In this document: in pieces, positions 27,627-34,443 of the stretch
Numbering within the stretch: position 1 is the first letter of the stretch
How the letters are laid out: each line of letters starts with the position of its first letter
NCBI RefSeq assembly: GCF_002043005.1
Contig: NZ_CP020330.1
Span: 1,510,501-1,574,500 of the forward strand
DNA length: 64,000 nt
DNA from: Martelella mediterranea DSM 17316
GTDB taxonomy: Bacteria; Pseudomonadota; Alphaproteobacteria; Rhizobiales; Rhizobiaceae
Reading direction: 5' to 3'
Made by a program: the position numbers and the translations under genes
The notes under the pieces: model-generated
Seen by the model: the letters and a program-made list of their open reading frames with translations, nothing else
Told to the model about the DNA's origin: nothing
Database searches by the model: none

Positions 27627-28253
27627 CTAGCCGGCGGCGACCGGCTCGCATTCGCCAAGCCGGCTCTCCAGAAGATCGAAAAGCGCGCCGCCGGTCTGGG
27701 GGCGTCCGTCGCGGGATTTGAAGGGGATGCGGATGCCGTCTTTCGGCTTGAACACCGGCAGATGGCCTTTCGGCGCGTCCTCCGGCGAAAACGACATGGC
27801 GTCATAGGTGAGCCATTGGCCGTCCCTGCGCCACCCGACGGCCTCAACGAAAGCGACGAGCCGATCCGGATTTTCAGACAGTCGCCCGCTACCCGAGTCA
27901 TCTAGCGGAAGGTTATCCAGCACCTCGCGCTGGGCGGAAAGGCCGAACTTGCCGCCGGAGGCTTCGGAAAACAGCCGATCCATATAGATGATGTCGGCGC
28001 AGGGCAGGTTTTCGACGTCATCCTTGCCGAGCCAGCCGTCATTGGTGCGGTTGGCGAGGATCAGCGTGATTTCGGAGGCCTCGGTATTGGCGGCGCGGAA
28101 ATCGCCGCTGGCAAGCGCGGCCCTCATTGCCTCGTAGCGGTGGGCCGGGTCATGCGCGCCGGTGCCGTCGAGAAAGGTCAGCGCGCTGACCACGATGGCA
28201 GCGATGACGGCGCAGATGGCAAGAAGGGTCTTGTTCCTGAAAAGCCTGTTCAT
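27627..28253 (-). CDS. Membrane-anchored GUN4-like domain protein
   Basis: 208 residues. A transmembrane anchor lies at about residues 9-28, then a domain whose landmarks match GUN4, the porphyrin-binding regulator of Mg-chelatase: RYEAMRAALASGDFRAANTE (40-59), DGWLGKDDVENLPCADIIYM (72-91), GGKFGLSAQREVLD (100-113), FVEAVGWRRDGQWLTYDAMSF (135-155, read with gaps) and APKGHLP (160-166). AGGAG precedes the ATG, 9 bp after feoB, so it is the last gene of an iron operon. GUN4 is best known from oxygenic phototrophs. Here a tetrapyrrole-sensing or haem-handling role is inference. Confidence 0.75.
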   Translation of the reverse strand: MNRLFRNKTLLAICAVIAAIVVSALTFLDGTGAHDPAHRYEAMRAALASGDFRAANTEASEITLILANRTNDGWLGKDDVENLPCADIIYMDRLFSEASGGKFGLSAQREVLDNLPLDDSGSGRLSENPDRLVAFVEAVGWRRDGQWLTYDAMSFSPEDAPKGHLPVFKPKDGIRIPFKSRDGRPQTGGALFDLLESRLGECEPVAAG

Positions 28254-28262
28254 CGTCCGCTC

Positions 28263-30101
28263 CTATTTCCAGCCCAGCAGAAGGGCGCCCTGATAGAAGG
28301 CGAAAGCCACCAGCCACGCATAGACCAGCGAAACGATCAGCGAGAACACCATGAACAGCGTCGAGCGGCTTTCCGCCCGCACGGTCGCGACCGTCGTCAG
28401 GCAGGGCGTGTAGAGCAGGCAGAACAGGCAGAAGGAATAGGCCGCCGCCGGCGACACGGTGGTCGCGATCTGGTGGGCGACGAGGCCGGAGGACATGGCG
28501 TAGATGGTCGACAGCGAGCCGATCACCACCTCCTTGGCGATGAAGCCGAAGATCAGCGCCAGCGTCAGATAGGGATTGATGCCGATCGGTGCCATGACCG
28601 GCTGCAGCAGTTCGCCGAGCTTTCCGCCCCAGGTGTCGAGCCCGGTGGCGTTGGTCGGGAAATTGGTGAGGAACCAGACGGCGACCGTGCCGATGACGAT
28701 GAAGTTCGTCGCCCGATGCAGGAATTCCCTGAGTTCGCCATAACCCCGAAGCCAGACCTGGCGGAGCGTCGGCACGCGGTAGGGCGGCAGTTCAAGCACG
28801 AACGGCTCCGTGTTCTTGAACTGCTTCGAGCGCGAGAAGATCGCGGCGGCGATAAACGCGGCGACGAAGGAGATGACGTAGAAGGAGAACAGCACCAGCG
28901 GCCCCTGCGCCGGCGGGAAGACCGCCGCGATGATGAACACGAACACCGCAAGCCGCGCCGAACAGAGCGAGAAGGGGATGATCAGCATGGTCAGCAGCCG
29001 GAGCGGCTGCGATCGCATCACCCGCGTTCCCATCAGCGCCGGCACGTTGCAGCCGAAGCCCATCATCTGCATCACGAAGGAACGCCCGTCGAGGCCGATG
29101 CGGCGCATCCACGTGTCCATCAGATAGGCGGCGCGGGAGAGGTAGCCGCTGTCTTCCACCGCCGCCATGCAGAAGAAGAACAGCATGATCAGCGGCACGA
29201 AGGAGGCGACGGTGGCGACGCCGAGCCAGATGCCGTTGATGACGAAATTCTGCAGCCAGCTCGGTCCAAGGCCGAGCACCGGATCGAGGATGCGGTTCTG
29301 GATCCAGTCGGTGATGGCGCCGACCCAGTCCTGCGAGGGCAGGCCGATGGTCCAGACGATGTAGAAGACAAACAGCATCACCGCGAAGAACAGCGGCAGG
29401 CCGAAGACGGGGTGCAGCAGGAAGCGATCGAGCTTCTGCGTCATCGTGACCGGCGGGTTCTCGGGATAGACGACGGCGCCGGACAGCGTTTCGGCCAGCG
29501 TCTCCTCGCTCATCAGCGTAGCGCGCAATTCTTCATAGTCTGCAAGAACAGGGGCCATGTCGACGCGCGCGGCGAGGGCGGCATCGACGCTGGCGATCGC
29601 TTCGGGATAGCCCTCGCCATATTTCGCGCTGATCAGGTGGACGGGCAGGCCGAGCCGCGCCGACAGCGCTTCGGTGTCGATGACGATGCCGTTCTTGCGG
29701 GCCTCGTCCGCCATATTCAGCATCACGACGGCCGGCAGGCCAAGCTGCCTGACCTGAAGCGGCATCAGGATCTGCCGGTCGATCTGGCTGGCGTTGATGA
29801 CGATGATGACAAGGTCGACCGGGTAGGTCTTCAGAAAGTCGGCGACGACCGTCTCATCCTCGGAAAAGCCCTCCAGGTCGTAAATCCCGGGAAGGTCGAC
29901 GAATTCCAGTTCGCGGCCGGAGAGCTTCACCCGCGCATTGGACAGCGAAACCGTGATCCCCGGCCAGTTGCCGACATAGGCGCTCGCGCCGGTGATGCGG
30001 TTATAAAGCATCGACTTGCCGGTATTCGGCTGGCCGATCATGGCGATGCGCGGAATGTCGTTGCGGTCGAAATTGGCGTCAGCGGGTGCGCAATGGCTCA
30101 T
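28263..30101 (-). CDS. feoB: Ferrous iron transporter FeoB
   Basis: A 612-residue Fe(II) importer. The N-terminal G domain has G1 GQPNTGKS, G3 DLPGIYDLEG and G4 NMAD. It is followed by the helical GDI-like region and two Gate repeats with the conserved MGFGCNVPALMGTRVM and FCLLYTPCLTTVATVRAE, whose Cys residues line the pore. Shorter than E. coli FeoB (773) but normal for alphaproteobacteria. GGGA stands before the ATG. FeoA is encoded 130 bp upstream; there is no FeoC. Confidence 0.96.
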   Translation of the reverse strand: MSHCAPADANFDRNDIPRIAMIGQPNTGKSMLYNRITGASAYVGNWPGITVSLSNARVKLSGRELEFVDLPGIYDLEGFSEDETVVADFLKTYPVDLVIIVINASQIDRQILMPLQVRQLGLPAVVMLNMADEARKNGIVIDTEALSARLGLPVHLISAKYGEGYPEAIASVDAALAARVDMAPVLADYEELRATLMSEETLAETLSGAVVYPENPPVTMTQKLDRFLLHPVFGLPLFFAVMLFVFYIVWTIGLPSQDWVGAITDWIQNRILDPVLGLGPSWLQNFVINGIWLGVATVASFVPLIMLFFFCMAAVEDSGYLSRAAYLMDTWMRRIGLDGRSFVMQMMGFGCNVPALMGTRVMRSQPLRLLTMLIIPFSLCSARLAVFVFIIAAVFPPAQGPLVLFSFYVISFVAAFIAAAIFSRSKQFKNTEPFVLELPPYRVPTLRQVWLRGYGELREFLHRATNFIVIGTVAVWFLTNFPTNATGLDTWGGKLGELLQPVMAPIGINPYLTLALIFGFIAKEVVIGSLSTIYAMSSGLVAHQIATTVSPAAAYSFCLFCLLYTPCLTTVATVRAESRSTLFMVFSLIVSLVYAWLVAFAFYQGALLLGWK

Positions 30102-30199
30102 CGAAAATCCCGTTCCCGATCGGGCAGGCGGAGGGCCTTGCCCGGCGTTTTCATTTCAGCGACTGACCCGTGAGCCTTTGCGGCCTCTGTCGGTATTGA

Positions 30200-30222
30200 G
30201 GCCCGCGTCGATGGCGCGGGCC
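30200..30222 (-). terminator. Hairpin in the feoA-feoB spacer
   Basis: GGCCCGCG (30200-30207) pairs perfectly with CGCGGGCC (30215-30222) around a 7-base loop, 9 bp after the feoA stop on the minus strand. No T-run follows. It may be an mRNA-processing or attenuating structure that lets feoA (with ferritin) and feoB be expressed at different levels. Confidence 0.45.
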
Positions 30223-30231
30223 GGATTGTTT

Positions 30232-30510
30232 TCAGATCTTGCGAACCTTGACGAGTTCGGCTTCGGAACGACGAATGGCGATTTCGGTCGCCTTGCCGGC
30301 GCGCACAACCAAAGGGCCGCCGAACCAGCCGCGACGCACCATGGAAACCTGATGGCTGTTGGAAAGCCCGAGCGCCCTGAGGCGCACGGAAAGTCCGTTT
30401 TCGAACTGTCCGGCCTCGACGATCTCGACAATGCCGCTCTCGCCGGGCTGGAGGCTTTCCAGCGAGACGATGCGACCTTCGAGCGCTGTTTCAATGACCG
30501 GATCGTCCAT
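30232..30510 (-). CDS. feoA: Ferrous iron transport protein FeoA
   Basis: A 92-residue SH3-like cytosolic partner of FeoB. The family motif is present: LESLQPGESGIVEIVEAG near the start, LRALGLSNSHQVSMVRRG, and PLVVRAGKATEIAIRRSEAE at the end. The ATG is 2 bp after the ferritin stop and uses GGAGCCGAATAG as ribosome site, so it is translationally coupled to ferritin. Size and motifs are standard. Confidence 0.93.
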   Translation of the reverse strand: MDDPVIETALEGRIVSLESLQPGESGIVEIVEAGQFENGLSVRLRALGLSNSHQVSMVRRGWFGGPLVVRAGKATEIAIRRSEAELVKVRKI

Positions 30511-30512
30511 GA

Positions 30513-31019
30513 CTATTCGGCTCCGCCGATCCTGGAGATTTCCTGGTCGATGAAATAGAGCGCGTGCGGGCCTTCGCCGATCAGGTCGATCTTGGCAAGG
30601 ATGTCGGAGAACTGGGTCTCCTCCTCGCGCTGCTCACGCACGAACCATTGCAGGAATTCGAAGGTGGCGTGGTCGCCTTCCTCTTCGGCGCGCGTTGTGG
30701 CGGCGTAGATGTTGCGGGTCACCTTCTTCTCGGTTTCGAGAATCGCCGCAAACAGCTCGCGCGGGGTCTGCGCCTGGATTTCCGGGGCCTGCATGTCGGC
30801 GATTTTCACCGCGAAGTCCAGGTCAAAGAGATAGGCCAGAAACCGGCGCATATGATCCAGCTCCTCGGTCGCCTGCGCCAGAAGAAAGGCCTGGCAACCG
30901 GCCATATTGCGCTGGTTGCACCAGGCGGCAGCCTGGAAATAGAAGCGGGCGGCTTCCATTTCGCCATTCAATAGCTCGTTGAGCTGTGGCGCGAGCGCTC
31001 CCGAATTGGTGACTGTCAT
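30513..31019 (-). CDS. Non-haem ferritin
   Basis: Iron-storage protein, 168 residues from the ATG at 31019 (AGGAAA upstream). Ferroxidase-centre residues are visible in the four-helix pattern: NGEMEAARFYFQ (helix A Glu), ATEELDHMRRF (helix B E..H), ILETEKKVTRNIY (helix C Glu) and FVREQREEETQFSDI (helix D E/Q). It is closer to FtnA than to haem-binding Bfr, as no haem Met motif is seen. As first gene of an operon with feoA, feoB and a GUN4-like gene it links uptake and storage. A symbol is not assigned because ftnA/bfr naming varies. Confidence 0.9.
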   Translation of the reverse strand: MTVTNSGALAPQLNELLNGEMEAARFYFQAAAWCNQRNMAGCQAFLLAQATEELDHMRRFLAYLFDLDFAVKIADMQAPEIQAQTPRELFAAILETEKKVTRNIYAATTRAEEEGDHATFEFLQWFVREQREEETQFSDILAKIDLIGEGPHALYFIDQEISRIGGAE

Positions 31020-31080
31020 GGGGTTTCCTTTCCTGCGATGGGGTATTTGTGGCACACGTTCAGCTTGTAATCAATATACA

Positions 31081-31105
31081 TGACTAAAATCTGAAGCTTT
31101 TATCA
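31081..31105. promoter_or_regulatory. Candidate iron-regulator site upstream of ferritin
   Basis: TGACTAAAA (31081-31089) faces TTTTATCA (31098-31105), an AT-rich imperfect palindrome 62-86 bp upstream of the ferritin start. It stands out from GC-rich surroundings. Rhizobial iron genes are commonly controlled by Irr or RirA at AT-rich palindromes, but the match to either consensus is weak. The rest of the 31020-31378 gap is AT-rich promoter-like sequence and the uxaC terminator. Confidence 0.3.
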
Positions 31106-31248
31106 AGGCGCTGTAATTTCGTCAGAAACGGCAAAGCACGGATCGAAGCTGGATGATTAAAGTGCGTTTAAACTTACATTTATGCCGGGTTTACGCCAGC
31201 GACCAGCCGGGTCAGGCGGGTAACGCTATCCGCCCAAACTGCGGATGA

Positions 31249-31378: not shown

Positions 31379-32782
31379 TCACAATCTGTAGGCGCGTTTG
31401 ACCAGATTGTAGGTGAGGTCGCGGGCGACTTCCGGCGCCTCGTCCTCGTCCAGCCGGCCGGTGGTCACCAGCGTCGCCAGATAGGCGCAGTCGACGCGGC
31501 GGGCAACATCATGGCGGGCGGGGATCGAGCAGAAGGCGCGGGTATCGTCGTTGAAGCCGACGGTGTTGTAGAAGCCAGCCGTCTCGGTCGTCATCTCGCG
31601 GTAGCGGCGCATGCCCTCCGGGCTGTCATGGAACCACCATGCCGGACCGAGCTTCAGCGAGGGATAGGCGCCGGCAAGCGGCGCGAGTTCGCGGGTGTAG
31701 ACGGTCTCGTCCAGCGTGAACAGGATGATGCTGAGCGCCGGGTCCATGCCGACGGCGTTCAGCAGCGGGCGCAGCGCCTCGACATAGCTGGTCTGGACCG
31801 GAATATCGAAGCCGACATTGCGTCCGTGCCGGGCCATCATCGTGCTGGAATGGTTGCGGAAGGAGCCGGGGTGGATCTGCAGAACCAGTCCATCCTCGAT
31901 GCTCATCCGGGCCATCTCGGTCAGCATATGGCCGCGGAAGGCGTCCGCTTCATCCGCGCTGCACGCGCCCTTCAGCGCCTTTTCAAACAGCGCGGTGGCT
32001 TCGGCCTTCGGCAGGTCCTCGGTGCGGGCGGTGGCGTGGCCGTGATCGGTGCTGGTCGCGCCGAATTTCCTGAAATAGGCCCGCCGCATGCGATGGGCGT
32101 CGAGATACTGGTCGTAGTTCGTGGTATCGAGCCCGGTGATCGCGCCGAGTTTTTCCACATTTTCGGCAAAGCCCTCGAAATCGGGATCAACCACCGGGTC
32201 GGGGCGATAGGCGGTGATCACGCGCCCGCCGGTCCAGCCGCTTTCGCGGATTTGCCGATGCCATTTCAGATCGTCGAGCGGGTCTTCGGTGGTTGCGATC
32301 ACCTCGATGTTGAACCGCTCGAACAGGGCGCGCGGGCGGAATTCCGGTCGCTTCAGGCAATCGTCGATGTGATCGTAGAATTCATCCGCCGTGTCGGGTC
32401 CCAGCCGCTTGGTCAGGCCGAAGACATGCTCGAAGGCGTGTTCCAGCCAGCCCCGGCTGGGCGTGCCCCGGAACAGGTAGAAATTTTCCGCGAACAGTCG
32501 CCAGATCGCCCGGCTGTCGGTCTCGCTCGTCCCGCCGTCGATGCGGGCAACGCCGAGTTTTTCCGGCGGAATGCCCTGCGAGCACAGCATGCGGAAAACG
32601 TAGTGGTCGGGCACCACGAACAGTTGCGCGGGATCCGGAAACGGTTCGTTTTCGGCATACCAGCGCGGATCGGTATGACCGTGCGGGCTGATGATCGGCA
32701 GCCTGCTCACTTCGCGATAAAGCGCGCGCGCCAGGTCCCGCGCCTTCGGTTCCAGCGGGAAAAGCCGGTCAGTGTCAAGCAT
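31379..32782 (-). CDS. uxaC: Glucuronate/galacturonate isomerase
   Basis: Isomerises D-glucuronate to fructuronate and D-galacturonate to tagaturonate, the first step of hexuronate breakdown. About 467 residues from the ATG at 32782, which has AAGGAG 7 bases upstream. Amidohydrolase-fold features include LPIISPHGHTDPRWYAEN (metal HxH), NIEVIATTEDPLDDLKWH and QIHPGSFRNHS. Divergent from a GntR regulator and KDG kinase. The fructuronate/tagaturonate reductases and dehydratases needed to reach KDG are not in the window. Confidence 0.94.
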   Translation of the reverse strand: MLDTDRLFPLEPKARDLARALYREVSRLPIISPHGHTDPRWYAENEPFPDPAQLFVVPDHYVFRMLCSQGIPPEKLGVARIDGGTSETDSRAIWRLFAENFYLFRGTPSRGWLEHAFEHVFGLTKRLGPDTADEFYDHIDDCLKRPEFRPRALFERFNIEVIATTEDPLDDLKWHRQIRESGWTGGRVITAYRPDPVVDPDFEGFAENVEKLGAITGLDTTNYDQYLDAHRMRRAYFRKFGATSTDHGHATARTEDLPKAEATALFEKALKGACSADEADAFRGHMLTEMARMSIEDGLVLQIHPGSFRNHSSTMMARHGRNVGFDIPVQTSYVEALRPLLNAVGMDPALSIILFTLDETVYTRELAPLAGAYPSLKLGPAWWFHDSPEGMRRYREMTTETAGFYNTVGFNDDTRAFCSIPARHDVARRVDCAYLATLVTTGRLDEDEAPEVARDLTYNLVKRAYRL

Positions 32783-32817
32783 TTGCGGCTCCTTGGCCCA
32801 TTGCAATTCGTCTTAAA

Positions 32818-32831
32818 ACTAATATGTTAGT
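32818..32831. promoter_or_regulatory. Palindromic operator candidate between uxaC and gntR
   Basis: ACTAATATGTTAGT is an inverted repeat (ACTAA/TTAGT with a 4-base centre) in the 75-bp divergent spacer, 27 bp before the regulator's start and 36 bp before uxaC. Size and position fit a FadR-type GntR dimer site controlling both directions. A TATGTTAGTATGC-type -10 overlaps it. No experimental basis. Confidence 0.5.
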
Positions 32832-32857
32832 ATGCAAGAATTGTCAACGGAGGCCGC

Positions 32858-33541
32858 ATGGTGGCCAATATCGAGCAGCCCCGGCAGACGGTGACCGACC
32901 TGATCTATGACAGGCTCTACCGCCAGGTCATCGAGAACGAGCTACCGCCCGGCACGAAGCTTTCGGAAGCCGAGGTCGCGCGCACGCTCGGCGTGTCGCG
33001 CCAGCCGGTGCGCGATGCCTTTTACCGGCTGTCGCAGCAGGGTTTTCTGCTGGTGCGGCCGCAGCGCGCCACGCTCGTCGCGCCCATTTCGGTGGAGGCG
33101 GTGATGCAGGCGCTGTTCATCCGCACGGCGCTGGAGGTGGCGACCGTTATGGCCGCCGCGGAGCAGGGAACGGACGAGGATTTCGACAGGCTCGACGCAT
33201 TGCTCGAGGAGCAAGGCAGGGCGGTGCAAGCCGATGACCGGATGGGCTTCCATCGTCTCGATGACGAACTTCACCGCCAGATCTGCGCGCTGGCTGGCCA
33301 TGAATACGCCTGGACGCTGATCCGCGAGCATAAGGCCCATATGGATCGCATTCGTCTCCTCTCGCTGTCCTTCACCGCCCATGATGCGCTTGCCGAGCAC
33401 CGCGCCATCGTCGGCGCGATCAAGGCGCGGGACGCCGATGCCGCCGTTGCGGCCATTCGCCATCACCTTTCCCGGATCGCCGGCAGCATCACGCGCATCC
33501 ACCAGACCAATCCCGGTTTCTTCGATCAGGAACAGATATGA
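32858..33541 (+). CDS. GntR-family regulator (FadR/FCD type), probable hexuronate regulator
   Basis: A 227-residue repressor. The N-terminal winged helix is at about residues 8-75 (LIYDRLYRQVIENELPPGTK, SRQPVRDAFYRLSQQGFLLV), followed by an FCD effector domain with the metal-binding His/Asp pattern (FHRLDDELHRQICALAGHEY, EHRAIVGAI). GGAGG precedes the ATG. It overlaps the KDG kinase gene by 4 bp and is divergent from uxaC, so UxuR/ExuR-like control by a hexuronate or KDG is likely. The effector is inferred from context. Confidence 0.9.
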   Translation: MVANIEQPRQTVTDLIYDRLYRQVIENELPPGTKLSEAEVARTLGVSRQPVRDAFYRLSQQGFLLVRPQRATLVAPISVEAVMQALFIRTALEVATVMAAAEQGTDEDFDRLDALLEEQGRAVQADDRMGFHRLDDELHRQICALAGHEYAWTLIREHKAHMDRIRLLSLSFTAHDALAEHRAIVGAIKARDADAAVAAIRHHLSRIAGSITRIHQTNPGFFDQEQI

Positions 33542-34443
33542 AAAACATTCTCAGCATCGGCGAATGCATGGTCGAGATGGCTCCGCGCGCCGATGGCGCC
33601 TATACGCGCGGCTTCGCCGGCGACACGTTCAACGCCGCCTGGTATCTGGCGAAGCTTTTGCCCGAAGGCGCCACGGTCGACTATTTCACCGCCGTCGGCA
33701 CGGATGCCGTCTCCGGCGAGATGCTCGATTTCATGGAGCGGTCAGGCGTCGGAACCGGCTGCATCCGCCGGATCGAGGAGCGCACGGTCGGCCTCTACAT
33801 GATCGCGCTGAAGGATGGCGAACGCTCGTTTTCCTACTGGCGCGGTCAGTCCGCCGCCAAACGGCTCGCCGCCGATCGCGCGGCGCTTGAGGCGGCCGTG
33901 CGGGGCAGGGACCTTGTCCTGTTTTCCGGCATCACCATGGCGATTGTCGACGAGGCCGATCGCGGCACGCTGCTGGACGTGCTTGCCGAGGCGCGAAAGG
34001 TAGGCGCGGTGATCGCCTTCGATCCCAATATGCGCCTCCGTCTCTGGCCCTCGCGCGCGGCGATGGCGGAGACCATCATGCAGGCCGCGGCGATCAGCGA
34101 CATGGTGCTGCCTTCGTTTGACGAGGATGGCTCGGTGTTCGGCGACGACACTCCTGAGGCGACGATCGCCCGCTATCGCGCGCGCAGCGCGGAGACGGTG
34201 GTGGTCAAGAACGGCGTCGATATGATTCATGCCCGGTCCGGAACGGAGGGCGCGATCAGCTTCCAGCCGACGCCGGCCGAAAACGTGGTCGACACCACGG
34301 CGGCGGGCGACAGCTTCAATGCCGGTTTGATCGCGGCGCTGGCGCGGGGCGAAAGCCTTGTCGATGCCATCGCCCGGGCCGCGGCTCTTTCTTCCCGCGT
34401 CATTGCAGCGCGCGGCGCGCTCGTGGACGACGCGGTTGGGTGA
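33538..34443 (+). CDS. kdgK: 2-dehydro-3-deoxygluconokinase (PfkB family)
   Basis: Phosphorylates 2-keto-3-deoxygluconate for the Entner-Doudoroff route. 301 residues. PfkB signature 1 region is YTRGFAGDTFNAAWYLAKLL. Signature 2 is VDTTAAGDSFNAGLIAAL, with the catalytic Asp in AAGDSF. It starts inside the stop of gntR (ATGA overlap), which supports a hexuronate-catabolic operon. KDG as substrate is inferred from this context and the overall KdgK-like N-terminus (ILSIGECMVEMAP). Confidence 0.88.
   Translation: MKNILSIGECMVEMAPRADGAYTRGFAGDTFNAAWYLAKLLPEGATVDYFTAVGTDAVSGEMLDFMERSGVGTGCIRRIEERTVGLYMIALKDGERSFSYWRGQSAAKRLAADRAALEAAVRGRDLVLFSGITMAIVDEADRGTLLDVLAEARKVGAVIAFDPNMRLRLWPSRAAMAETIMQAAAISDMVLPSFDEDGSVFGDDTPEATIARYRARSAETVVVKNGVDMIHARSGTEGAISFQPTPAENVVDTTAAGDSFNAGLIAALARGESLVDAIARAAALSSRVIAARGALVDDAVG

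Follow-up and report, generated by a model that had tools for sequence, protein, structure and literature searches.

A GUN4 gene at the end of an iron operon

The window analysed here is a stretch of 64,000 nucleotides from Martelella mediterranea DSM 17316 (contig NZ_CP020330.1, positions 1,510,501 to 1,574,500), and the gene under study, which encodes a 208-aa GUN4-domain protein (27627..28253), is the last of four genes on its minus strand that are probably carried by one transcript. The first of them encodes an FtnA-like, non-haem ferritin (30513..31019; PF00210, 1.3e-33), with its ATG at 31019 and an in-frame GTG that would lengthen the open reading frame to 31055. Only 2 bp separate the ferritin stop from the start codon of feoA (30232..30510; PF04023, 1e-12), which is followed by feoB (28263..30101; TIGR00437, 2.2e-167), encoding an Fe(II) transporter with a G-domain whose product matches the Pfam families FeoB_N, Gate and FeoB_C. 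The feoB stop lies 9 bp from the GUN4 ATG and is overlapped (TAGGAG) by the AGGAG ribosome-binding site of the GUN4 gene (28260..28264, minus strand); typA comes next. The original prediction, made from the letters alone, had described a GUN4-like gene closing a ferritin-feoA-feoB operon, 9 bp after feoB and with its own AGGAG, and all four genes are found where it had placed them.

The membership of the 208-aa protein in the GUN4 family, as judged from its sequence, is firm. A hidden Markov model search with PF05419 gives 3.6e-25 and a score of 89.2 bits (cut-off 29.2) over residues 37-173 (27735..28145, minus strand), and the landmark motifs by which the gene had been recognised are present in the translation. 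In a sequence search, the protein also matches five solved GUN4 sequences, the best being 1z3x (2e-07), with 1y6i at 4.5e-05 and one at merely 0.094; an NCBIfam profile search gave no match for it. The predicted structure is poor, with a mean predicted local distance difference test score (pLDDT) of 51.3, and its structure-search matches include GUN4 while the best unrelated row is within one Z unit, so that they support the fold but do not prove it.

Ahead of the operon, part of an upstream region (31020..31219, minus strand), in an alignment judged by eye, is recognisably kept among the six genomes of the genus that bear GUN4 and before the first gene in two that lack it (G154 and G155). The 130-bp feoA-feoB spacer (window 30102-30231) folds into GC-rich hairpins, and the differing spacers of relatives fold too, both observations being made without a shuffled control. 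Beside the operon, window 31379-34443 holds genes for a glucuronate isomerase, a GntR-type regulator and a 2-dehydro-3-deoxygluconokinase-like protein, the latter two scoring under the curated cut-offs of their matched models; these genes probably serve uronate use.

Distribution of GUN4 and its association with ferritin

GUN4 is present in 6 of 13 Martelella genomes, and all six share the gene order ferritin-feoA-feoB-GUN4-typA with a feoB-GUN4 gap of 9-12 bp. The expected conservation beside feoB in relatives thus holds for every genome that bears the gene, though just 6/13 of the genus do so and seven have no GUN4 at all. A FeoB-GUN4 pairing running through the Rhizobiales was not borne out: among 151 genomes sampled from the family, 397 from the order, 385 from the class and 398 from the phylum, sets that overlap, the sole GUN4 match is the window's own genome, and the family sample held one more genus member, G081, without GUN4. 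In a collection of named genomes, where a pattern scan picks up close relatives only, two loci were confirmed, both of them in Martelella mediterranea records. One GUN4-bearing genome (G161, locus L043) carries about 370 bp of additional sequence between GUN4 and typA compared with the others.

The absence of any hint of photosynthesis, which had been remarked on within the window, extends to the genus for two marker profiles. None of the 13 genomes is matched by the Photo_RC profile (control matched in 1/14) or by that of BchH, the Mg-chelatase H subunit (TIGR02025; control matched in 5/14, above cut-off in 3). GUN4 as a remnant of photosynthesis is therefore not supported. An action of the protein on Mg-chelatase is not expected. 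The titles and abstract openings of papers found by searching open-licence literature gave no link of GUN4 with Feo or ferritin in a non-phototroph, an absence that carries little weight there.

What GUN4 tracks in Martelella is ferritin rather than feoB, an association that is new here. A ferritin orthologue (85-100% identity) occurs in exactly the six GUN4-bearing genomes, and whole-genome searches of the other seven found none, four being without any match and three having matches of 26-27%. An intact operon feoB is found in 12/13 genomes; it is kept by six of the seven that lack GUN4, and GUN4 is for this reason tied to ferritin more than to FeoB. A link to FeoB as such was set aside on these counts. 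The interpretation offered by the original prediction is supported in part.

The loci without GUN4 show how the operon has varied. In G154, a ferritin scar (L045 7946-8053) records an in-frame internal deletion that leaves about 20 residues of each end, with feoA and feoB intact, and in G155 ferritin is unrecognisable at the locus; in both genomes, ferritin and GUN4, which flank feoAB on opposite sides, are gone and feoAB is retained. The seventh GUN4-less genome, G159 (L051 8024-8248), keeps the tail of feoB alone, recognisable as 75 C-terminal residues, and ferritin, feoA and GUN4 were not found at its locus. Behind feoB in the seven genomes, no GUN4 remnant was detected at an E-value of 0.01, and the typA-side spacer alone aligns. 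Another FeoB-like open frame, longer at 797-858 aa and 33-35% identical, lies elsewhere in G159, G155 and G156 (L021, L022, L023), one of these three genomes having lost the operon FeoB.

On midpoint-rooted trees, the number of changes required depends on the marker. With rpoB, three changes account for either gene, most simply as a single gain with two losses, one in G153 and the other in the group of G154, G155 and G159; with the feoB tree, which does not include G159, two suffice, and with the weakly supported typA tree four are needed. On rpoB, G153 clusters with G161/G000/G157 (94), a grouping that weakens to 64 when rpoB and typA are combined; the loss in G153 is less certain because the feoB tree puts this genome outside the GUN4 group. 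Under fitted rates on three trees, typA not among them, the exact presence pattern has a probability of 2.8e-4 to 6.3e-4 for an independent trait.

Related ferritins occur in 28/397 genomes of the order sample, own genome counted, and at the 20 best loci from beyond the genus, two of which are shorter pieces, no FeoA or FeoB was hit within about 1.5 kb. Within 8-15 kb around the three best non-genus ferritins, the sole Feo match is one of 25% to the GTPase part of FeoB, about 6 kb off.

Selection, topology and relatives of the domain

The five other GUN4 orthologues are 67-86% identical to the window protein, and the median pairwise dN/dS (ratio of nonsynonymous to synonymous substitution rates) of the gene over the six genomes is 0.30; the corresponding values are 0.06 (ferritin), 0.09 (feoA), 0.11 (feoB) and 0.065 (typA). 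The GUN4 gene is under purifying selection, which makes it more than a chance open reading frame, and it is less constrained than its operon neighbours.

A single hydrophobic helix at codons 10-28 (28170..28226, minus strand), preceded by nine residues of net charge +3, agrees with the N-terminal membrane anchor of the original prediction, by which the domain was to be placed near FeoB. The N-side flank of the helix carries +2 or +3 and the C-side flank -2 to +2, the N-side being the more positive in all six orthologues. By the positive-inside rule, the more positive flank stays on the cytoplasmic side, and the favoured topology is therefore N-in/C-out, with the GUN4 domain predicted to face the periplasm. 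Ferrochelatase and the G-domain of FeoB lie in the cytoplasm, so that a periplasmic domain would be placed away from both. An uncleaved anchor is preferred over a signal peptide because the AxA-like end of the N-terminal region is lost in G158, and cleavage is accordingly disfavoured.

The nearest relatives found for the domain are accessory GUN4 domains encoded on cyanobacterial plasmids. Plasmid sequences yielded 31 matching records, whose names are all cyanobacterial, and 13 of them were inspected, with neighbourhoods of 2.5-5 kb per side and incomplete plasmid gene tables. The best match, from Cylindrospermopsis (39.9% identity over 69% of the query), belongs to a protein with a trypsin-like domain (3.6e-24), a signal-like N-terminus and then GUN4 (5.4e-41), and Leptolyngbya has a 202-aa stand-alone GUN4 (1.9e-26) with a hydrophobic N-terminus. 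In several of the 13, GUN4 adjoins kinase, trypsin-like, AAA/MoxR, TIR or WD40 parts or forms one protein with them, and others have no telling neighbour. An excerpt of PMC7159879 gives the domain a cyanobacterial origin and proposes such accessory GUN4 domains as tetrapyrrole sensors. The Martelella domain is 28-30% identical to a canonical pair, close to the 27-37% of most accessory domains, and the tree around its branch has low support (26-57%) and leaves the donor unresolved. An ancestor within Martelella may have taken its GUN4 from among the accessory domains of cyanobacteria. As for a phage-borne origin, the phage collection gave no match and two viral-contig scans gave none that was confirmed.

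Two cysteines are invariant in the six orthologues. Cys85 (27999..28001, minus strand) is shared with 10 of the 13 inspected accessory domains, the others having Ser (two) or Pro (one), and its position is Ala or Ile in two aligned canonical GUN4s. The C-terminal Cys202 (27648..27650, minus strand) is a candidate disulfide partner, and a Cys85-Cys202 bond is possible; accessory domains that show no obvious export signal have C-terminal cysteines too, and an exported-looking relative (L118) is without Cys85.

The porphyrin-contact residues give a mixed answer on tetrapyrrole binding, as far as an alignment can tell. Asn211 of Synechocystis GUN4 is a position that we take to matter. In the same protein, according to an excerpt of PMC8967248, Phe196 and Arg214 contribute to porphyrin binding or affinity and mutation of Trp192 alters binding. 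An ungapped profile alignment puts Tyr150 at Trp192, Ser154 at Phe196, Lys169 at Asn211 and the invariant Asp172 at Arg214, with an invariant Phe155 one residue from the Phe196 column. The Martelella proteins have extra residues before the C-terminal helix, a stretch that an alternative alignment gaps, which makes the register after the GHLP motif unsure; the invariant Arg175, Lys179 and Arg181 could be stand-ins for the canonical residues. The core motifs FG..AQ, GW and APxGHLP are retained in all six orthologues.

Possible roles and comparison with known systems

The explanation that we prefer, tentatively and at less than even chances, is that the GUN4 protein is a periplasm-facing, helix-anchored haem or porphyrin binder serving the Feo-ferritin module. 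The N-terminal helix would hold the domain on the periplasmic face of the inner membrane, where it may bind a tetrapyrrole resembling haem or porphyrin; Fe(II), some of it perhaps set free from haem, would enter via FeoB and be stored in ferritin, and the GUN4 protein could act as a buffer or sensor of the tetrapyrrole, or retain metal-free porphyrin, at the site of iron delivery. Both the ligand and the function are what we infer. The flank-charge margin is no more than one charge in three genomes, and the GUN4-ferritin association is that of one gene pair, noticed post hoc, in a single locus, so that linkage is a real alternative. GUN4 and ferritin might then have moved with the locus, GUN4 being a passenger without a role in iron handling, as its patchy presence (6/13) in one genus alone of those sampled would suggest; one event can move both genes of a single locus, and the conflicting feoB and typA trees leave room for its exchange between species. 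We nevertheless hold this unlikely in view of the purifying selection on GUN4, its spacing of 9-12 bp from feoB in 6/6 genomes and the loss of both genes from opposite sides of a retained feoAB in G154 and G155.

A somewhat better case, if still an improbable one, can be made for a domain that has lost tetrapyrrole binding and acts as a scaffold between proteins or at the membrane, for instance on the periplasmic loops of FeoB. The invariant Asp in the Arg214 column, the Lys in place of Asn211 and the Tyr in place of Trp192 speak for it, as does the faster evolution of GUN4 than of its neighbour genes; the retention of the core motifs in all six orthologues and the adjacency of Phe155 to the Phe196 column argue for binding, as does the sensor role proposed for related accessory domains in the excerpt of PMC7159879. 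The original prediction itself had suggested, as an example, a sensor that matches iron import to ferrochelatase demand; as a cytoplasmic domain, it would sense protoporphyrin or haem and tune FeoB or ferritin. Ferritin is a cytoplasmic protein, and the operon common to GUN4, feoB and ferritin and the co-inheritance of GUN4 with ferritin would suit such a sensor. Plant and cyanobacterial GUN4 do bind porphyrins, as an excerpt of PMC8967248 reports. The flank charges, however, favour N-in/C-out in 6/6, if thinly in three, nothing points to GUN4 contact with FeoB or ferritin, and the canonical Arg is not conserved in the simplest register; we regard this sensor as doubtful and rank it below the periplasmic binder.

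The periplasmic binder can be extended to a fuller scheme, which we consider improbable as a whole: a recruited cyanobacterial accessory GUN4 would capture haem or metal-free porphyrin at the membrane while the Fe(II) set free passes through FeoB into ferritin, a function apart from chlorophyll. GUN4 has mainly been studied as a regulator of the chlorophyll pathway, and a selected, anchored GUN4 that is tied to ferritin and ferrous-iron uptake, in a genus lacking photosynthesis markers, offers a simple chlorophyll-free system for the ligand and role of the domain. If true, the scheme would mean that a tetrapyrrole module can directly serve iron homeostasis and would suggest that alphaproteobacteria have a route for haem iron by way of FeoB.

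With canonical GUN4, the Mg-chelatase cofactor of Synechocystis, Thermosynechococcus, plants and algae, the Martelella protein shares the core-motif domain. It differs from it by its N-terminal hydrophobic helix and iron operon context, by the lack of a BchH or Photo_RC match in the 13 genomes and, in the simplest alignment, by not keeping Arg214 and Asn211. The best matches found, as in Cylindrospermopsis, are among the cyanobacterial accessory domains, which an excerpt of PMC7159879 describes as joined to kinases, proteases, caspases or TIR and as occurring in conflict systems; the Cys at position 85 (10/13) and a stand-alone form, that of Leptolyngbya, are seen there too. These domains, however, have cyanobacterial rather than alphaproteobacterial hosts, and no feo or ferritin gene is annotated in the 13 neighbourhoods, whose gene tables are incomplete. 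Finally, an excerpt of PMC6460266 describes a route in Bacteroides fragilis by which haem iron is removed in the periplasm, with involvement of the predicted membrane-anchored, CobN-like BtuS1/BtuS2, and enters via FeoAB. GUN4 is not a chelatase, and no dechelatase was found here, where no search for one was made; the Martelella system would nevertheless likewise combine FeoAB with a tetrapyrrole protein that is anchored in the membrane and faces the periplasm, and the resemblance may thus be one of working principle, an analogy rather than membership of the same system.

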